Below are positions 7,676 through 32,179 of a DNA stretch of 52,654 bases, in pieces. Made by a program: the position numbers and the translations under genes. A model generated the notes under the pieces. That model ran no database searches. It had not been told where the DNA came from and was given only the letters and a program-made list of their open reading frames with translations. Within the stretch, counting starts at the first letter, position 1. Every line of letters starts with the position of its first letter. The DNA is from an uncultured Bacteroidota bacterium (GTDB lineage Bacteria; Bacteroidota; Bacteroidia; Flavobacteriales; Flavobacteriaceae): contig CABXUL010000009.1 of the NCBI GenBank assembly GCA_902515395.1, forward strand, positions 1-52,654, in the 5' to 3' direction.

Positions 7676-7720
7676 ACATCATGAGTATCTCTAATGAAAT
7701 TATTTGTTTTTTCTTTGTTC

Positions 7721-7728
7721 TATATTTG
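7721..7728 (+). promoter_or_regulatory. -7 element upstream of ybeY
   Basis: TATATTTG ends 7 bases before the ATG at 7736, which would give an almost leaderless transcript. A TTTG at 7703-7706 is 14 bases further upstream, shorter than usual. Confidence 0.4.
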
Positions 7729-7735
7729 CAAAAAA

Positions 7736-8152
7736 ATGATACAATTCTTTCATAATGATTTTCTGACCCTAGATAATAAACAATTATCTGAATGGCTTGT
7801 TAAGGTTGCTAATAAGGAAGGATTCGTCATTCAAAAGCTTCATTATAACTTTGTTGACGCCTTTAAGCTCTATGAATTGAACCAAAAATACTTGAATCAC
7901 GATAACGATACTGATATTTTAACCTTCGATTATTCTGTAGATAATGAAATTTCTGCGGAAGCCTTTATTTCACATGATGCACTTGAGCAAAATGCAAAAA
8001 TAAACAAGCAAAGTGTTGAAAAAGAGACACTTAGGCTTCTTTCACACGCGCTTTTACATTGTTTTGGCCATCCTGATAAAAGTCCTGACGAAAAATTATT
8101 TATGCGACTTAAAGAAGAAGAGTGTATTGCAATGTTCCACGTGAAACAATAA
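7736..8152 (+). CDS. ybeY: rRNA maturation endonuclease YbeY
   Basis: YbeY is a zinc-dependent RNase that matures the 16S rRNA 3' end and takes part in ribosome quality control. The ATG at 7736 gives 138 residues, the usual size; an upstream ATG at 7694 would add a non-conserved extension that contains the -7 promoter match. The metal site is visible as SHALLHCFGHPDK, with H104, H108 and H112 or D114; Bacteroidota members commonly read GYKDK here rather than GYDH, so the third ligand differs from E. coli. Upstream, TDILTFDY is the conserved substrate-side motif. The last codons (MFHVKQ) coincide with a parS-like palindrome. mnmG starts 3 bases after the stop. Confidence 0.93.
   Translation: MIQFFHNDFLTLDNKQLSEWLVKVANKEGFVIQKLHYNFVDAFKLYELNQKYLNHDNDTDILTFDYSVDNEISAEAFISHDALEQNAKINKQSVEKETLRLLSHALLHCFGHPDKSPDEKLFMRLKEEECIAMFHVKQ
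8133..8148. promoter_or_regulatory. parS-like centromere site 1
   Basis: TGTTCCACGTGAAACA is identical, as I recall it, to the 16-bp Spo0J/ParB binding site of Bacillus subtilis and fits the consensus TGTTNCACGTGAAACA found across bacteria. It lies inside the last codons of ybeY, where it encodes part of MFHVK. A second site lies at 10025-10040 beyond mnmG. parS sites normally cluster near the replication origin. Confidence 0.85.
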
Positions 8153-8155
8153 TAT

Positions 8156-10024
8156 ATGTTTGAGGGAGAATACGATGTTGTCGTTGTTGGAGGAGGTCAT
8201 GCTGGGGCTGAGGCTGCAGCCGCTGCTGCAAATCTAGGTTCAAAAACTTTGTTGATAACTATGAATCTCCAAACAATTGGTCAGATGTCATGCAACCCAG
8301 CCATGGGAGGTATTGCAAAAGGACAGATAGTAAGAGAGATTGATGCGATTGGCGGATATAGCGGTATTGTCTCTGACAAGAGTGCCATTCAATTTAAAAT
8401 GCTAAATCGATCAAAGGGACCTGCAATGTGGAGCCCCAGGGTTCAGTCTGATAGATTGTTGTTTGCCAAAGAATGGCGCGATGCTCTTGAACAAACTCCT
8501 AATTTGGATTTTTACCAGGATATGATTCAAGACATTATCGTTCAGGGTGGAGCAATTAAGGGGCTAATTACTTCATTGGGGACTCCTATATACTCCAAAA
8601 CAGTTATTCTTACCAACGGAACATTTCTAAATGGTTTAATCCATATTGGAGAGAAGAATTATGGCGGGGGCAGGGCAGGCGAAAAAGCCGCAACAGGTCT
8701 CACAACTAAACTTGAAAACCTTGGGTTTGAGTCAGGTCGAATGAAAACAGGTACACCGCCACGTGTAGACGGAAGGTCGCTTAATTATAAATTGATGGAA
8801 GAGCAGCCAGGTGACGTTGATCCTTCAAAGTTTAGTTTTACAGACACATCTTTTTTAACCGAACAACGTAGTTGTCATATTACTTACACTAGTCCAGACG
8901 TTCATGATCTACTGCGCTTAGGGTTCGATCGCTCACCGATGTTTAATGGTAGTATTCAAAGCACAGGACCAAGATATTGTCCATCTATTGAGGATAAGAT
9001 TAATCGATTTGCAGACAAATCAAGACATCAAATATTTGTTGAACCAGAGGGATGGAATACTGTAGAGGTATACGTTAACGGTTTTTCAACTTCACTACCA
9101 GAGGATATTCAGTACACGGCTTTACGGTCTGTTAAGGGATTTGAAAACGTTAAATTCTTTCGCCCTGGTTATGCAATTGAATATGATTATTTCCCCCCCA
9201 CCCAGCTTAAAAATAGCCTTGAAACCAAACTGGTCAATGGCCTTTTCTTCGCGGGTCAAATAAATGGAACTACCGGCTATGAGGAGGCAGCTTCACAGGG
9301 GCTTATGGCCGGAATAAATGCTCACTTAAAGCTCAACAAAAAGCCCCCTTTTATTTTGAAAAGGAATGAAGCCTACATTGGCGTATTAATAGACGATCTT
9401 ATTACGAAGGGAACGGATGAGCCATACCGAATGTTTACTTCAAGAGCGGAATTCCGAACCCTTTTGAGGCAGGATAATGCAGATTTAAGACTTACTCCAA
9501 TTTCTTTTGATCTCGGCTTGGCGAGTGAAGGGCGAATGAGAGCAGTTGAGTTAAAGTCTGCTCAAACACAAGAATTAGTTTCTTTTTTTAAGACACAAAG
9601 TTTTGATGTAAACGAGGTCAATCCACTACTGATTAGTAAAAACTCGGCTAAGGTTAAACAGCCAAATAAGTTAAGCAAAATATTTTCCCGTCCAAATATT
9701 ACCCGACACGAAATGATGTCAATCGAGGCAGTTTCTTCTTATCTGGAAAAGCATAGGATCAACAGTGAAATTTTAGAACAGGCGGAAATACAGATTAAAT
9801 ATGCTGGATATATTCAAAAAGAGACAGCAAATGCAGAAAAACTTAATCGACTTGATTATATTAAGATTCCGGAAGGTTTTGATTATGATGTTTTAGCTTC
9901 TTTATCTAAGGAAGCTAAAGAGAAATTAAATAAAATAAAACCAGCAAACCTCTCTCAGGCTTCAAGAATTAGTGGTATTAATCCTAGCGACATTAGTGTT
10001 CTTTTAGTTAAGCTGGGCAGGTGA
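8156..10024 (+). CDS. mnmG: tRNA uridine-34 5-carboxymethylaminomethyl modification enzyme MnmG (GidA)
   Basis: MnmG is the FAD-dependent partner of MnmE in making the cmnm5 modification at wobble uridine 34. The 622-residue length is typical. The dinucleotide fold appears at the N-terminus (VVVVGGGHAGAEA, residues 8-20), the family signature with the catalytic cysteine region follows (MSCNPAMGG), and GRMKTGTPPR and the C-terminal helical tail that contacts MnmE are present. It starts 3 bases after ybeY and is bracketed by two parS-like sites. In many bacteria this gene (gidA) lies close to the origin of replication, which fits the parS sites. Confidence 0.97.
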   Translation: MFEGEYDVVVVGGGHAGAEAAAAAANLGSKTLLITMNLQTIGQMSCNPAMGGIAKGQIVREIDAIGGYSGIVSDKSAIQFKMLNRSKGPAMWSPRVQSDRLLFAKEWRDALEQTPNLDFYQDMIQDIIVQGGAIKGLITSLGTPIYSKTVILTNGTFLNGLIHIGEKNYGGGRAGEKAATGLTTKLENLGFESGRMKTGTPPRVDGRSLNYKLMEEQPGDVDPSKFSFTDTSFLTEQRSCHITYTSPDVHDLLRLGFDRSPMFNGSIQSTGPRYCPSIEDKINRFADKSRHQIFVEPEGWNTVEVYVNGFSTSLPEDIQYTALRSVKGFENVKFFRPGYAIEYDYFPPTQLKNSLETKLVNGLFFAGQINGTTGYEEAASQGLMAGINAHLKLNKKPPFILKRNEAYIGVLIDDLITKGTDEPYRMFTSRAEFRTLLRQDNADLRLTPISFDLGLASEGRMRAVELKSAQTQELVSFFKTQSFDVNEVNPLLISKNSAKVKQPNKLSKIFSRPNITRHEMMSIEAVSSYLEKHRINSEILEQAEIQIKYAGYIQKETANAEKLNRLDYIKIPEGFDYDVLASLSKEAKEKLNKIKPANLSQASRISGINPSDISVLLVKLGR

Positions 10025-10040
10025 TGTTCCACGTGGAACC
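10025..10040. promoter_or_regulatory. parS-like centromere site 2
   Basis: TGTTCCACGTGGAACC begins immediately after the mnmG stop codon and contains a perfect 14-bp palindrome (10026-10039). It differs from site 1 at positions 12 and 16. It occupies almost the whole 21-base gap before the following methyltransferase start at 10046. Confidence 0.75.
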
Positions 10041-10045
10041 ATATT

Positions 10046-10897
10046 ATGAAAAATATAAAAAATACTTTCTTGTATACTGTAAAAGACCATTTGGCGTCAG
10101 AAGAATACTTCAACCTTTATTGGGATAAGCAAAAAATGATAGCATGGACTGATTTAGGAAAGGTAAAAGATTTGAACCCCTACTACCAATCTGACAAGTA
10201 TATTTCTCATCAAACAGACAATAAATCCATAATCAATATTCTTTATGGCTTTGCAAGAACAATAATGCTGCGGTATAAATTCAAACAACTTAAACCATTT
10301 GTAAAACCCTTGGATAAGTTGTTGGATATTGGATGTGGGGCTGGAAGCTTCTTGTCTTTTATGAATAAAAAAAACTTTAATGTATTTGGAGTAGAAAAGA
10401 ACACTACTGCTTTAGAAATATGTGCCAAAAAAAAACTTAAAGTTTATAACTCATTAGATTCTCTTCCAAACAAAGTCTTTGATATCATTTCTTTATGGCA
10501 TGTCCTTGAGCATTTAACTCAACCTGAGGAAGTTATAGCAAAGATCCATGATTTATTGAATAGCAAGGGAGTTTTAATTGTAGCAGTTCCCAACTTTTCT
10601 AGTCACGATAGGTTGCATTATAAAAACAATTGGGCCGCGTTAGACGTTCCTCGACATCTTTGGCATTTTACCCCAGAGGGTTTGGAAAAAATATTTTTCA
10701 GTGCGGGATTTAAATTATTAAAAAAAAGCCCCCTTTGGCTTGATGTTTTTTACATTTCGTTTCTCTCGGAAAAATATAAAGGTAATAATCTGGCTTTTTT
10801 AATAGGAGTGCTAAAAGGAAGTTATTTTACACTTCGATCCCTATTCTCAAAAAAGCATTCGACTATTTCTTTTGTGTTTAAGAAGGAGGCTGTTTAG
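10046..10897 (+). CDS. Class I SAM-dependent methyltransferase
   Basis: A 283-residue methyltransferase of the Methyltransf_23/11 type. The SAM-binding motif [11 protein letters not shown] lies at about residues 93-102, followed by an acidic residue after the second strand (VFGVEKN), and the post-motif SLWHVLEHL is clear. An N-terminal 80-residue extension and a VPRHLWHFT segment resemble proteins placed near cell-envelope or methylated small-molecule pathways, but the substrate is unknown. It follows mnmG by 21 bases, nearly all parS-like sequence, so co-transcription with ybeY-mnmG is plausible. Its last 20 bases overlap the convergent holB gene. Confidence 0.85.
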
Positions 10898-23782: not shown

Positions 23783-26269
23783 TTGAAAAAAGACACCCAT
23801 TTTTTTATTTTAACTCTTACGGCCTTGGTCTTAGCTTCTGCCTGCTCCACTCAGAAAAATAAAATACTCAATCGTGGCTTTCATACCCTTAACACTAAGT
23901 ACAATGTACTTTTTAACGGAAAAGAGGCATTTGAGGTTGGAAAAGCTATTTTAGAGCAAGCCCATGATGACAACTTTTTTGAGTTTTTAGATGTAGAGCC
24001 AATCGCTATTAATGGGGAAAAAATGACACAGACTAGCGTGGTTCCTGGTTTCGCTCGAGCTGAAGAAAAAGCGGTAAAAGCCATTCAAAAGCACTCTATG
24101 AATATCAATGGAATTCAACGTAATACTAAAATTGACGAAGCTTATCTTCTGTTGGGAAAGGCACGATATTTTGATCGGAGGTTTTTTCCAGCCATGGAAG
24201 CCTTTAATTTTCTGCTGGAAAACTATGCAGATAAAAATACTTATGTAGAAGGAAGAATTTGGCGGGAAAAAACTAATATTCGGTTAAAAAATGATGAGCT
24301 TGCAATAAAAAACCTCAGGGGATTAGCCCTCACAATAACCCCTAATAGTAGGTTTCACAGTATGGCTAATGCTACTATATCTCAGGCCTTTCTTAACACT
24401 CAACAGCTAGATTCCGCAAGTTTTTTCATAAAGCGGGCAGCATTAACTGCTAAAAACGACGAGGATAAGGGGCGCTATTATTTCTTAACTGGCCAGTTGT
24501 TTGAAAGTCTTAATCAGCCTGATTCTGCAATGTGGGCTTATGAGCAAGTTGTAGGGCTTAATCGAAAAATTCCAAGAAAATATTGGATTAATGCTAAGAT
24601 AAAACAATTAAATATTAGAAAAATTCGCGATAGCATTGACCCATTTGAATCACTAAAAAAATTAGATAAGAATTATGAAAATGAATTATTTGATCATTTA
24701 ATAAATCGTTCCTTAGGGCTATATTACTTTTGGCTAAAAAATGATAGCCTGGGGGCTCATTACCTGACAAAATCTTTAAGATCACAAAACATCGATTTGC
24801 CCACAAAAGCAGCAAATTATAGGGATATGGCCGACTTTAACTTTGCTAATGGAAAATATGTTTTAACTGGGTCTTACCTTGACAGTTTGTTACCAATAAT
24901 TCCAGAGGAAACTTTGTCAAGAAGAGCAACCCAAAGAGAACGTGACAATCTTAATGGAGTAATCAAATACGAGACAATTATTAGAAAAACTGATAGTATT
25001 TTGAGACTATTATCCATGGACAAAGTTGATCAGTTAAAATATTTCGAAGACTTTCTTAAAGAGAAAAAAGCCAAAGCATTGGCTAAAGTAGTTGAGAAGG
25101 ATAAAGGGGTTTTCTCTTTCCTATCCAAAGCTGAAAAAGCGAGCCAATTCTATTTTTATAACCCTAAGCTTCTAATTCTAGGCAAACAACAATTTCTTTC
25201 AATCTGGGGGAATCGCCCCAACAGTGACAATTGGGCATTAGCAGCAGCAATCGATCCAGTAATTGAAGAAAATCAAGGTGCTCTGGATAAAGAAGAAACC
25301 ATTCAACAAGAAAGCTTTTTTGTAGAAAGACCAGAAAGCTATATTAATTCTCTACCTAATTCTATTGAAGCTATCGACAGTATAAAAGTAACTAATCAAA
25401 ACGCCTACCTTCAGTTAGGAATGATATACAAAGAAATTTTCAAGGACAATAAACTAGCCGAAAATCGACTTACCCACTTACTTGACCTAGATCCACCGCC
25501 CAATATTTCCGCACCTGCATTATACCACCTTTACAAAATCAACGAAAAGATTTTACCTCAAAAAGCAAAAAAATACTTGGATAGGATCTTATTAGAATTC
25601 ACTGACACAGCCTATGGAAAAGTACTTGCTAATCCAATGGACTTTGATCGGTCCACCTTAAATACACCCGAAATGATGTACACTAGCTTATTAAAGCTCT
25701 TTAAATCTGGAGATTTTGATTTACTAAAGAAAAAGGCGTTAGCATTATCTGTTTTTTTAAGCGGGACAGAATATCAGTCAAAATTTGAATTACTTTTGGC
25801 TAACACTAAAGGAAGGCTTCAAGGTATTGATCAATGGGAAAAAGAACTTTCTATTATTAAAATGAAATATTCTGGAACCCCTGAGGCAGAATTGGCTGAA
25901 GAAATAATTAATCAAATTAAAAAGACAAATAGCATCGACGATCAAAACAAAACTTATATTAATTATAAGTGGATTTTTAAGTATAGAATTCAAGACTCTA
26001 TTGAATTAAAAAACACCAAAACCAAGCTTCAAAAATCTTTGGACAATTCTTACATCACAAATTGGTTTTTAACTGAAGATCGATTCGATGACACTCAAAT
26101 TTTCCTCGTTCTTCATGGAATAAGAAATATTAGAAAGCTCAATGAATGGAAGAAAAAAATCAATGATGAAGAACAGGAGGCTTACAAAAAAAATAATTTT
26201 GTAGTTTTGTCATCCGATTATAAGAAAATGATTAGGGATAAAAAATTAAGATTCTATGAAACAAAATGA
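23783..26269 (+). CDS. sprE: Gliding/type IX secretion lipoprotein SprE (PorW)
   Basis: An 828-residue TPR-rich lipoprotein required in relatives for type IX secretion and surface gliding. It has a type II signal peptide (lipobox ASAC, Cys 21), then the family hallmark GFHTLNTKYNVLFNGKEAF (about residues 32-50), followed by TPR-like helices along the length. The start is TTG at 23783, since the only nearby upstream ATG runs into a stop. The bactofilin gene overlaps its end by 14 bases, so the two are probably translated together. gldH, another gene of this secretion/gliding set, lies at 43.8 kb. Confidence 0.87.
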   Translation: MKKDTHFFILTLTALVLASACSTQKNKILNRGFHTLNTKYNVLFNGKEAFEVGKAILEQAHDDNFFEFLDVEPIAINGEKMTQTSVVPGFARAEEKAVKAIQKHSMNINGIQRNTKIDEAYLLLGKARYFDRRFFPAMEAFNFLLENYADKNTYVEGRIWREKTNIRLKNDELAIKNLRGLALTITPNSRFHSMANATISQAFLNTQQLDSASFFIKRAALTAKNDEDKGRYYFLTGQLFESLNQPDSAMWAYEQVVGLNRKIPRKYWINAKIKQLNIRKIRDSIDPFESLKKLDKNYENELFDHLINRSLGLYYFWLKNDSLGAHYLTKSLRSQNIDLPTKAANYRDMADFNFANGKYVLTGSYLDSLLPIIPEETLSRRATQRERDNLNGVIKYETIIRKTDSILRLLSMDKVDQLKYFEDFLKEKKAKALAKVVEKDKGVFSFLSKAEKASQFYFYNPKLLILGKQQFLSIWGNRPNSDNWALAAAIDPVIEENQGALDKEETIQQESFFVERPESYINSLPNSIEAIDSIKVTNQNAYLQLGMIYKEIFKDNKLAENRLTHLLDLDPPPNISAPALYHLYKINEKILPQKAKKYLDRILLEFTDTAYGKVLANPMDFDRSTLNTPEMMYTSLLKLFKSGDFDLLKKKALALSVFLSGTEYQSKFELLLANTKGRLQGIDQWEKELSIIKMKYSGTPEAELAEEIINQIKKTNSIDDQNKTYINYKWIFKYRIQDSIELKNTKTKLQKSLDNSYITNWFLTEDRFDDTQIFLVLHGIRNIRKLNEWKKKINDEEQEAYKKNNFVVLSSDYKKMIRDKKLRFYETK

Positions 26270-27275: not shown

Positions 27276-27308
27276 CTGATTAATTAAAACTATAATTTGG
27301 TGATCTTA

Positions 27309-28404
27309 ATGCCAAAAAATTTTTATAAAAACTCCCTAATTTATTTACTCTTGGGGTTGACTGCCTTAAGCGCTAAAGACCCAAAAAAACCGGAGGATAA
27401 TAATGGCAGTGATTTAAAATCTGAAATTAAGTTATATATACTACATCACCTTGAAGACTCCCACGATTTTAATTTGATGTCCTACACCGACAAAATAAGC
27501 GGTAAGAAGGTTTATATTGGCATGCCTTTGCCCGTTATTCTTTGGGATAATGGAATAAAAATCTTTTCCTCAACTAAACTTAATCATGGGAAAACTGTTG
27601 TCCAATCAGGGGACAATTATTATAAACTTTATCACGGTAAAGTATACCAGACGGATGCTAAGGGGACCATTAATTATGATGAAAAAAATCATCCAATTAA
27701 CTATAAGCCCTTAGACTTTTCAATAACCAAAAACGTAGTATCTATTTTGTTCACAGCGTTAATCATGTTGTTGTTGTTTAAAGGGTTGGCAGATTCTTAT
27801 AAAAAAAATGGAATGATCGCTAAGGGATTTGGGCGTTTTTTTGAACCCCTAGTGCTGTATATTCGTGATGAAATTGCTATACCAAATATTGGTGAAAAGC
27901 ATTACAAAAGGTTTATGAGTTATTTATTGACTTTATTCTTTTTCATATGGTTTCTCAATCTTTTGGGTTTGACTCCTTTGGGGAATTAACGTAACTGGAA
28001 ATATCGCCATTACCTTTGCTTTAGCCCTAATAACATTTATAATTACTAATTTAAGTGGTAAAAAAACATATTGGAAACACATATTTTGGATGCCAGGTGT
28101 TCCTATTCCTATGAAAATCATTTTAGCCCCTATCGAGCTTTTAGGTATAATCATTAAGCCTTTTTCTTTAATGATACGACTTTATGCGAACATATCAGCG
28201 GGGCACATCGTACTGATGAGCCTTATTTCGTTGATGTTTATTTTTAGAAATTGGTTAGGTTCAAGCCTTTCGTTTGCATTGGCATTTTCAATTTCTATAA
28301 TTGAAATTTTAGTTGCCCTTTTACAAGCATACATCTTTACAGTTTTGTCTGCCTTGTATTTTGGCTTTGCAGTTGAAGAACACGATGATCATAATCATCA
28401 CTAA
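27309..28404 (+). pseudogene. atpB: ATP synthase F0 subunit a, frameshifted
   Basis: Two frames add up to a 364-residue subunit a, which forms the proton half-channels with the c ring. The first frame (from ATG 27309) has a signal-peptide-like N-terminus, the long extracytoplasmic region typical of Bacteroidota and helices up to LNLLGLTPLG. Then it reads a stop at 27987-27989. Removing one G from the G4 run (27980-27983) continues as GINVTGNIAITFALAL and on to RLYANISAGH, with the essential arginine, and FGFAVEEHDD at the end. A true knock-out of atpB amid intact atp genes is unlikely, so a sequencing or assembly indel is the simplest explanation; slippage is possible. Confidence 0.88.
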
Positions 28405-28429
28405 ATTAATGTATAATTTAAATAAATAG

Positions 28430-28627
<198 letters not shown>

Positions 28628-28636
28628 AAAAGTTCT

Positions 28637-28656
28637 ATCCTAATTTGATTTAGGAT
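28637..28656 (+). terminator. Hairpin between atpE and atpF
   Basis: ATCCTAA (28637-28643) pairs with TTAGGAT (28650-28656) around a 6-base loop and is followed by TGCTTTTATTT. It may act as a partial terminator or mRNA 3' stabiliser that raises expression of subunit c, which is needed in many copies, over downstream subunits. This role is inferred from position. Confidence 0.45.
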
Positions 28657-28681
28657 TGCTTTTATTTAAAACTTTTTTAAA

Positions 28682-29179
28682 ATGGAGAAATTAATTAGTG
28701 AGTTTTCTTTTGGCCTATTCTTTTGGCAGCTACTAATATTTATTTTTTTGGTGTTGCTGTTAAAGAAATTTGCTTGGAAACCGATTTTAGATACAGTCAA
28801 CGAGCGAGAATCGTCTATAAAAGACGCCATGAGCGAAGCTGATAAAGCCCGTAATGAAATGGCGGCTATTCAAGAGAGTAATCAAAAAGTCTTGAAGGAA
28901 GCAAGAGCAGAACGAGAAGCATTATTAAAGGATGCTAGGAATACTGGAGCCGAAATTGTAGCTCAGGCTAAGACTGACGCTAAGACTGAGGCAAATAAAA
29001 TTATTTCCCAAGCGCAAGAAGCTATTCAAAATGAAAAACGTGCTGCAGTTAATGAATTAAAAAACCAAGTTGCTCAAATTTCTTTGGAAATTGCTGAAAA
29101 AGTAATTGACACTGAATTGGCGAACAAGGACAAGCAGGCACAGTTAGTCGATAAGTTACTTAAGGATAGTTCTTTATGA
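28682..29179 (+). CDS. atpF: ATP synthase F0 subunit b
   Basis: A 165-residue peripheral-stalk protein: one N-terminal membrane helix (about residues 8-27, ending KKFAWKPIL) followed by a long charged amphipathic coiled coil. It connects the membrane sector to the catalytic head. The atpH start overlaps its stop by 4 bases (ATGA). It is preceded by the hairpin after atpE. Confidence 0.93.
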   Translation: MEKLISEFSFGLFFWQLLIFIFLVLLLKKFAWKPILDTVNERESSIKDAMSEADKARNEMAAIQESNQKVLKEARAEREALLKDARNTGAEIVAQAKTDAKTEANKIISQAQEAIQNEKRAAVNELKNQVAQISLEIAEKVIDTELANKDKQAQLVDKLLKDSSL

Positions 29180-29712
29180 AATCAGGAAGAGCTGCGTTGA
29201 GATATGCCAAGGCCCTTTTAGACTTTTCCATTGAGGGGCAAGAAGAAAAAAACGTATTTGATGAAATGCAAAACATTCTTACAGTAATGCAAAGCAGTAA
29301 GGACCTAGATGACGTGTTGAACAACCCTGTTTTGCCAACTAAACAAAAACGGCTGATTATGGAAGAAGTTTTTAACAAAATCAGTAATCCTACTGAAAGA
29401 CTCTTTGACTTACTTTCAAAAAACAATAGAGAAGGAATATTGGATATTGTTGCACAAAAATACCTTGAATTGTATGACAAATATAAGGGCAAATTAATTG
29501 CGACGGTTACTACTGCAGTACCTCTTAATGAAGCTTTGGAAAAGAAACTACTTCAGAAAGCAGCAGAATTATCCCCCTTAAAAATTGAATTAAAAAATAT
29601 TATTGACTCTAAAATCAAAGGAGGATTCATTCTTAGAGTAGGTGATTTACAGTTCAATGCGAGCATTGCCGAGCGCATGGAAACATTAAAGAGAAAATTG
29701 ATTACATCCTAA
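29176..29712 (+). CDS. atpH: ATP synthase F1 subunit delta
   Basis: A 178-residue OSCP/delta subunit that joins the peripheral stalk to the F1 head. The N-terminal helical bundle starts with [13 protein letters not shown], and the C-terminal part has the family motif [18 protein letters not shown]. It overlaps atpF by 4 bases and precedes atpA by 22 bases, the usual order. Confidence 0.93.
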
Positions 29713-29734
29713 AAAAACAGTTAAAAAAAATAAA

Positions 29735-31312
29735 ATGGCAGAAGTTAAACCCGCTGAAGTTTCAGCAATATTAAAAAGTCAATTGGCAAGATTTGAGGCA
29801 ACTGCCGCCCTGGACGAGGTCGGTACTGTACTTGAAGTAGGGGACGGTATAGCAAGAGTCTATGGCCTTACTGACGCAGAATACGGGGAATTGGTAACCT
29901 TTGAAAACGGAATGGACGGGATGGTACTTAATCTTGAGGAAGATAACGTTGGAGTAGTATTGTTGGGACCTTCAAAGGAAATCAAAGAAGGCAATACTGT
30001 CAAGAGAACAAAAAAAATTGCTTCTATCAATGTTGGGGAAGAAATAGTTGGTCGTGTTGTTGACACACTAGGAACACCCATTGATGGTAAAGGACCACTA
30101 AAGGGGGAAACTTTTCAAATGCCATTGGAAAGAAAAGCCCCTGGAGTAATCTTTAGACAACCAGTTAACGAGCCGCTACAAACTGGAATCAAATCCATTG
30201 ATGCAATGATTCCTGTAGGCCGAGGTCAACGAGAGCTGGTTATTGGTGATCGTCAAACGGGTAAAACTACCGTTTGTATTGACACCATCCTAAATCAAAA
30301 GGAGTTTTTTGATGCAGGACAACCTGTTTACTGTATTTATGTTGCAATAGGTCAAAAAGCTTCTACTGTCGCTGGTATTGCGAAAACTCTCGAAGATAAA
30401 GGTGCATTAGATTACACTACTATCGTAGCTGCAAATGCTTCTGACCCAGCACCCATGCAAGTGTATGCTCCATTTGCAGGAGCAGCTATTGGTGAGTATT
30501 TTAGAGATACAGGCCGTCCTGCTCTAATCATATACGATGACTTGTCAAAACAAGCGGTTGCTTATCGAGAGGTATCCCTTTTGCTTCGTCGTCCACCAGG
30601 TCGTGAAGCATACCCTGGAGACGTATTCTATCTTCACTCTAGGTTATTGGAACGTGCTGCAAAAGTGATTGCTGATGATGAAATTGCCAAAGAAATGAAT
30701 GACCTGCCTGAATCCTTAAATGATAGAGTAAAAGGAGGGGGCTCCCTTACCGCATTACCCATTATTGAAACACAAGCTGGAGATGTTTCTGCTTACATTC
30801 CAACTAACGTAATTTCAATTACTGATGGCCAAATTTTCTTAGAGTCTGACCTCTTCAACTCTGGAGTCCGCCCTGCGATTAACGTAGGGATTTCTGTATC
30901 TCGTGTTGGTGGATCGGCTCAGATAAAATCCATGAAAAAGGTTGCGGGAACTTTAAAACTTGACCAGGCTCAATTTCGGGAATTGGAAGCATTTTCGAAA
31001 TTCGGTTCTGATCTTGATGCAGCGACCCTAAATGTAATTGAAAAGGGACGTAGAAATGTAGAGATTTTAAAACAAGCCCAAAACGACCCCTTTACTGTTG
31101 AAGATCAAGTTGCAATCATTTACGCAGGATCAAAAAACCTCCTTAGAAATGTTCCTGTTCACAAGGTCAAAGCATTTGAGAATTCTTTTTTATCTAATCT
31201 TAAAAAGAATAATAAAAAAGTATTGTCCGAACTTAAAGCAGGTAAGATTAGTGACGAAGTTCTTGAGACATTAAATAAAGTGGCTGAAGAAACTTCTAAA
31301 GCATTTGAATAA
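29735..31312 (+). CDS. atpA: ATP synthase F1 subunit alpha
   Basis: A 525-residue non-catalytic nucleotide-binding subunit of F1. The N-terminal beta-barrel, the Walker A GDRQTGKT at residues 171-178, the [15 protein letters not shown] block and the C-terminal helical bundle are all present. Length and motifs are typical. The gene lies between atpH and atpG. Confidence 0.97.
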
Positions 31313-31315
31313 AGA

Positions 31316-32179
31316 ATGGCTAATTTAAAAGAAATACGAAATCGTATTGCTTCTGTCTCTTCGACTATGCAAATTACAAGTGCTATGAAAATGGTCTCTG
31401 CAGCGAAACTAAAAAAAGCACAGGACAGGATTACAGCTATGCGACCTTATGCAACTAAGTTGACTGAATTAATCCAAAATCTTAGCGCTAACATGGGTGG
31501 CGTTGGAGAAAACTCCTACACCACTGTCAGGCCAGAAAAAAAAATTTTAGTAATTGCAATTACCTCTAATAGGGGATTGTGTGGCGGTTTTAATGCTAAT
31601 ATAATCAAAGAAACTCTCAGACTTGGTAGAGAAGATTTTAAAGCAAAAAAAGTCGATGTATTGGGAATTGGAAAAAAAGGAGGAGATATTTTATCTAAAA
31701 CTCAAACGATGAAAAGTCGACACGACAGCCTTTTTGATGACCTTAATTTTGAGGATACTGCTTTAGTTGCTGTCGAAGTAATGGAGGAGTTTAAGAAAGG
31801 AATATATGATAAGGTACTTTTGGTTTATAACCGATTCAAAAATGCCGCTACACAGTTGATCACTGTTGAACAATTCCTTCCTATTGTCTCTGAAGAAATT
31901 TCTAGCGAAAAAACAAGGGGAGATTACCTTTATGAACCATCACAATCCGCCATTGTCAAAGAGCTATTACCTAAGTCCCTTAAAATACAATTATTTAAGG
32001 CTTTGCTAGATTCCCTCGCAAGTGAACATGGCGCACGTATGACTGCCATGCACAAGGCCACTGACAATGCCACAGAGCTTAGAGATCAACTCAAACTCAC
32101 TTATAATAAAGCGCGCCAGGCTGCTATCACCAATGAGATTCTTGAAATAGTAGGGGGAGCAGAGGCTTTAAATGGATAA
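31316..32179 (+). CDS. atpG: ATP synthase F1 subunit gamma
   Basis: A 287-residue rotor shaft. The N-terminal helix (KEIRNRIASVSSTMQIT, then AMKMVSAAKLKKAQ) and the C-terminal helix (ATELRDQLKLTYNKARQAAI) that form the coiled-coil shaft are intact, as is SNRGLCGGFNANI in the globular part. It starts 3 bases after atpA. atpD and atpC do not follow, as is usual in Bacteroidota, where they lie elsewhere. Confidence 0.95.
   Translation: MANLKEIRNRIASVSSTMQITSAMKMVSAAKLKKAQDRITAMRPYATKLTELIQNLSANMGGVGENSYTTVRPEKKILVIAITSNRGLCGGFNANIIKETLRLGREDFKAKKVDVLGIGKKGGDILSKTQTMKSRHDSLFDDLNFEDTALVAVEVMEEFKKGIYDKVLLVYNRFKNAATQLITVEQFLPIVSEEISSEKTRGDYLYEPSQSAIVKELLPKSLKIQLFKALLDSLASEHGARMTAMHKATDNATELRDQLKLTYNKARQAAITNEILEIVGGAEALNG

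Follow-up and report, generated by a model that had tools for sequence, protein, structure and literature searches.

The window analysed here (the whole stretch of 52,654 nt, from a member of the Bacteroidota) carries two 16-bp palindromes, one on each side of mnmG (gidA), and the first of them extends into the coding sequence of ybeY. The locus raises the question of whether these palindromes are centromere (parS) sites and, if so, whether their position at mnmG marks the replication origin and how one of them came to encode the end of a protein. The preliminary description had located both 16-mers correctly in the window sequence (Table 1). It had also stated that site 2 nearly fills the gap between mnmG and the methyltransferase gene, and indeed the site takes up 16 of the 21 bases before the ATG at 10046, its first base directly following the mnmG stop codon (10022-10024).

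Table 1. Features at the mnmG locus and partition genes of the same genome (positions refer to the window unless a contig is named).
Feature	Sequence	Position	Strand	Remarks
Putative parS site 1	TGTTCCACGTGAAACA	8133-8148	.	in the last codons of ybeY; 7 bp separate it from the mnmG start
Putative parS site 2	TGTTCCACGTGGAACC	10025-10040	.	immediately past the mnmG stop codon
ybeY, rRNA maturation RNase		7694-8152	+	TIGR00043, 67.8 bits (cut-off 45)
mnmG (gidA)		8156-10024	+	bracketed by the two sites; TIGR00136, 838 bits
Probable SAM-dependent methyltransferase gene		10046-10897	+	downstream of site 2; methyltransferase-family matches, all below cut-off
ParA-like ATPase		G000 contig 10, L045:940-1728		AAA_31 and CbiA domains
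ParB		G000 contig 10, L045:1718-2617		ParB_N, HTH_ParB and ParB_C domains

For ybeY, the ATG at 7736 is the more likely true start. Further along the window, the type IX secretion lipoprotein PorW/SprE is encoded at 23783-26266 (591.6 bits, cut-off 250). Genes of the F1Fo ATP synthase were found at 27297-32176, about 20 kb from mnmG (alpha and gamma subunits over the cut-off, subunit A below it). They recall the gidA-atp neighbourhood that is found at the origin of E. coli.

The claim that the palindromes match the ParB/Spo0J consensus was borne out, since site 1 is identical to the consensus parS of B. subtilis as given in PMC7614844. Sites 1 and 2 differ from TGTTYCACGTGRAACA by 0 and 1 mismatches, and from the 16-bp palindrome TGTTTCACGTGAAACA by 1 and 3 mismatches, which was counted as close. 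A search of the window for site 1 with up to 3 mismatches gave four strand-matches, all at these two places; 100 shuffled sequences gave 0.39 on average and never more than 3. In the available assembly of the genome (G000; 1.67 Mb in 70 contigs, 68% complete), exact GTTYCACGTGRAAC cores were found at these two sites only, and TGTTYCACGTGRAAC had no match elsewhere in it with 0 or 1 mismatch; at two mismatches 11 strand-matches elsewhere were detected, and the reversed control (up to 2 mismatches) gave 8. The genome-wide count thus showed two sites that are unique at 0-1 mismatch and do not occur at chance frequency: they are few, clustered (1.9 kb apart) and above chance in the available 1.67 Mb. 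The assembly is fragmentary, and the count of two refers to its available part, so that further parS sites may be missing from it. A 16-mer is short, which would leave some room for chance palindromes, but the uniqueness in the available genome, the shuffles and the reversed controls speak against them, as does a position that is conserved in the phylum sample more than elsewhere (see below). An origin by chance was rejected on these grounds, its probability being negligible.

The proteins expected to act on such sites are encoded in the same genome. The ParA-like ATPase and ParB genes adjoin each other, and the ParB is of the parS type (PF17762, E 8.8e-38), with matches to solved ParB, Spo0J and Noc chains. 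According to PMC7383237, R173 and G201 (Caulobacter numbering) characterise parS-type proteins, and Q173 and R201 the Noc type. When residues were mapped by the constant spacing of conserved residues (constant offset 5), Q162, G170, K171, R173, N178, G201 and R204 were found to be kept, the pattern of the parS type. Deviations from Caulobacter were S172 to K, T179 to Y and A184 to K; by the same paper, positions 179 and 184 differ from one ParB protein to another and in Noc are almost invariably lysine. The Noc binding site (NBS) was also considered as a candidate and rejected: the sole HTH_ParB protein found in the available assembly carries R and G at 173 and 201, not the Q and R of Noc. Among 39 genomes examined, ParB was present in 38; the exception (G039, 0.3 Mb) lacked both an exact 16-mer and parS at mnmG.

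Within the genus, exact TGTTYCACGTGRAACA was found in 18 of 21 relatives, and the 16-mer stood just before mnmG in all 18 whose assembly includes the mnmG 5' end. The three relatives without it (G006, G013 and G020) lack that end or the gene: the mnmG match begins at a contig edge with profile position 60, is confined to the C-terminal half, or is absent. The equivalent of site 1 lies inside ybeY in 15 of the 15 same-genus loci read, and a second core follows 1-2 bp past the mnmG stop in all 15 (exact in 13, with 1 mismatch in 2).

The association extends to the phylum. The core GTTYCACGTGRAAC occurred in 140 of 148 genomes sampled, with 324 sites compared to 7 of the reversed pattern. The mnmG locus was read in 128 of the 148, with up to about 1.5 kb of either flank, leaving out one genome with a weak mnmG match (G154) and 19 of family f29. 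These 128 genomes hold 286 sites genome-wide, 203 of which lie within 200 bp of an mnmG end and 233 within the stretch read. At least one site within 200 bp of mnmG was found in 106 of the 128 genomes and in 26 of 33 families: sites occur on both sides of the gene in 37 genomes, upstream only in 38 and downstream only in 31. By exact core counts in 159 mnmG loci, there were 256 sites in the 73 kb of near flank, 4 in the 290 kb of mnmG body and 28 in the 402 kb of further flank, and the reversed pattern gave no site in the same loci.

No exact site within 200 bp of mnmG was found in 22 of the 128 genomes. Six of them keep 1-mismatch copies there (G071, G085, G093, G115, G120 and G177), and in nine an exact site is present in the stretch read, further off or inside mnmG. 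The remaining seven (G075, G102, G129, G051, G072, G169 and G147) had neither an exact near site nor a 1-mismatch copy in the stretch read. ParB together with exact parS sites outside the mnmG stretch read was seen in G102 and G075 (family f19), in G051, G072 and G169 (family f30) and in G147; G102 has its two parS sites on another contig, with 2.8 kb between them. Arrays of parS were observed in the family relatives G059 (locus L129) and G063 (locus L110), with seven and nine exact sites in the genome, respectively: in G059, six occupy the 370 bp that precede mnmG, and in G063 five of the nine are at the start of another contig.

Given the consensus match, the ParA-like protein and ParB of the same genome, the uniqueness of the sites and the conservation of their position in the phylum sample, the two palindromes are very probably chromosomal parS sites of a ParABS system in a member of the Bacteroidota, and binding by ParB is predicted. 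The placement of parS at mnmG is a real and old landmark, whose role in chromosome segregation is suggested by these sequence comparisons. The palindromes could instead be operators through which ParB or another regulator acts locally on mnmG transcription rather than in segregation, and their position directly before the mnmG start (7 bp) and after its stop would suit such a function. Against it stands the match to a known centromere consensus with the cognate ParB present, and also the arrangement in other families, where the sites are found upstream of mnmG only (38 of 128 genomes) or downstream only (31 of 128), some of them several hundred bp from the gene. A purely local operator is considered very unlikely, and a local role at mnmG may exist in addition to segregation.

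As claimed in the preliminary description, site 1 lies within the ybeY frame: the codons ATG TTC CAC GTG AAA CAA TAA are read as MFHVKQ and stop, and the mnmG ATG follows at 8156. A comparison of ybeY-mnmG junctions showed that this overlap recurs. A ybeY frame was recognised upstream of mnmG in 57 of the 159 loci, and in 26 of the 57 YbeY ends in parS-encoded FHV[KE] plus one to a few residues, with parS read in one frame. These 26 loci are related (16 are from one genus, the present genome included) and do not represent 26 independent events; a further locus with an FHV tail (G081) was dropped, as the profile did not identify its frame as ybeY. The histidine codon of the 26 tails is CAC in every case and the valine codon GTG, while in the mnmG genes of the same loci (with the dropped G081) CAC makes up 41% of the histidine codons and GTG 16% of the valine codons.

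Three loci from other families within the class have V[SP]R-type YbeY tails, which result from translation of parS in a different frame (exact sites in G079 and G149, a 1-mismatch site in G071). One of 30 loci scored as overlapping (G030) had a 1-mismatch match deep inside the gene and was excluded from the count of captured sites. In 21 of the 31 ybeY loci without the FHV tail parS follows the stop codon, in one case sharing its last base; the distance past the stop is within 100 bp in 18 of the 21, and the YbeY ends differ (for example KEDYYLSLRKI). In 6 of the 57 no upstream site was found in the scanned part. The plain reading is that the DNA site is the older element and that the ybeY frame extended into it later: the frame would have run into the adjacent parS, and site 1 would thereby have joined the YbeY coding sequence. 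The FHVK/E tail thus appears to be a by-product of a DNA site under selection, i.e. a protein tail dictated by a DNA-binding site.

The preliminary description had further proposed that the pair of sites places this region near oriC. Support for this is indirect: GC skew sampled in seven relatives leans towards mnmG. Nearness to mnmG does not imply nearness to dnaA. In G000 itself dnaA, parB and mnmG are on three contigs (20, 10 and 9), so that the distances between them cannot be measured. Distances were taken from 29 genomes less G039 (no dnaA) and G047, i.e. 27 genomes with dnaA and mnmG on one contig (five lengths rounded), 25 of them with parB. In 11 of the 27, no more than 5% of the chromosome separates dnaA from mnmG, but the separation is 22-49% in all nine one-contig genomes of the order to which the window belongs. 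The best parB match per genome is at least 169 kb from mnmG in 25 of 25 genomes and at least 301 kb in 24, the 169 kb being found in G035; G172 has a further, weaker ParB-like match at 286 kb from mnmG.

GC skew was sampled in 20-kb stretches (20 in G141, and 10 each in G037, G172, G067, G156, G133 and G026) from seven genomes of the same order, picked as single contigs with dnaA far from mnmG; the score assumes that the leading strand is rich in G and that the terminus lies opposite the origin. In all seven, placing the origin at mnmG gave a larger mean signed skew than placing it at dnaA. The stretches agreeing with mnmG and with dnaA numbered, respectively, 13 and 8 of 20 in G141 and, of 10 each, 7 and 3 in G037, 8 and 1 in G172, 6 and 5 in G067, 6 and 6 in G156, 9 and 4 in G133, and 10 and 2 in G026. 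The last genome was the clearest: its skew switches sign somewhere from 1.34 to 1.53 Mb, a range that contains mnmG (1.44 Mb). The best-scoring origin interval included mnmG in only three genomes (G037, G133 and G026) and missed it by about 60 kb (G141), 120 kb (G156), 230 kb (G172) and 430 kb (G067) in the others. A fraction of 0.06 to 0.32 of all possible origins scored as high as mnmG or higher, and Fisher's combination of the seven fractions gave p = 0.007. These data are modest evidence, at coarse resolution, for an origin at mnmG. The reading is held less firmly because the best skew interval misses mnmG in four of the seven genomes and because parB is at 169 kb in one genome.

Within the window itself, GC skew is only weakly informative, since the coding strand of the genes switches at the same point. 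A search of its 52,654 nt for DnaA-box-like words showed no cluster; the strict word TTWTNCACA occurs once where 7.5 are expected (shuffle mean), i.e. more rarely, and TTATCCACA with at most 1 mismatch occurs 15 times where 16.2 are expected. That true parS sites lie here in a region away from the origin of this organism would fit the lack of such a cluster in the window, the position of dnaA on another contig and at the above distances in the nine genomes of the order, and a best-fitting skew origin that lies next to mnmG, not at it, in four of seven genomes. The mean signed skew, which favours mnmG over dnaA in 7 of 7, opposes this explanation, which is rather unlikely. We infer instead that the origin of this genome may lie on the mnmG-parS side.

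On this evidence, the following scheme may be proposed. ParB, made from the parAB pair on another contig, would nucleate on the two parS sites, spread over mnmG and its neighbours and, together with ParA, carry this part of the freshly replicated chromosome into the daughter cell. In most of the phylum sample parS is kept at mnmG, with parAB and, in this order, dnaA far away, and the replication origin, judged by the GC skew of relatives, would be on the mnmG-parS side. In its widest form the proposal is that mnmG and its flanking parS are a fixed origin-centromere core in Bacteroidota, that this core keeps its place at the replication origin as dnaA and parAB shift along the chromosome, that mnmG-parS rather than dnaA should be used to find the origin, and that the YbeY tail was taken from the centromere in several lineages and in two reading frames. 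As a whole this is put forward tentatively, with slightly more doubt than confidence. If it is true phylum-wide, the tie between parS and mnmG would provide a simple origin-side marker in fragmentary genomes, where dnaA may mislead. It also raises the testable question of why the centromere stays beside mnmG although parAB is elsewhere.

As elements, both sites are ordinary parS. What merits attention is their attachment to mnmG in most of the phylum sample, their possible use as an origin marker and the capture by YbeY. We found no paper describing parS at mnmG/gidA or ybeY in this phylum; an earlier description is possible, most likely in the survey of Livny et al. 2007. The available text of PMC8653839, on a Bacteroidota genus, mentions neither mnmG nor gidA.

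In gut bacteria, including Bacteroides, parS clusters and GC skew were used in a Hi-C study to place the origin, which did not always coincide with dnaA (PMC10197239, available part). Since the origin was chosen there by parS, that study is not independent proof of a tie between parS and the origin, and it differs from the current one in that no link of parS to mnmG was found in the part available. The system of B. subtilis (Soj/Spo0J) resembles the present one in its consensus parS, which site 1 repeats in full (PMC7614844), and in the presence of a ParA-like protein and ParB. B. subtilis has ten parS sites, some of them flanking oriC (same source), whereas the available G000 assembly shows two, which both adjoin mnmG and lie on a different contig from parAB.

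The likeness reaches Pseudomonadota and allies. In a scan that asked only for CACGTGRAAC just before an mnmG start, 67 of 80 titled records among the matches listed were Bacteroidota by their titles and 13 were not, and the exact core was present in 113 of 120 stretches among the matches listed. The phylum name used here rests on these titles and on gene content, PorW/SprE being one example. The non-Bacteroidota records listed include Rhizobium, Shinella, Methylocystis, Paramagnetospirillum, Phenylobacterium, Zetaproteobacteria and Desulfuromonadales, and the 14-base core is exact in 11 of the 13. The two groups differ in the location of the partition genes. Among the matches listed, no parA or parB match near mnmG was found in the 67 Bacteroidota records, of which only 20 span at least 4.5 kb downstream. 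Of the 13 non-Bacteroidota records listed, 10 carry a parA or parB match within a few kb of mnmG, and two of the other three cover only 1.3 kb downstream. This difference suggests that mnmG-parS in Bacteroidota is a remnant of an older origin cluster, mnmG-rsmG-parAB-parS, of which we take rsmG to have been a member.
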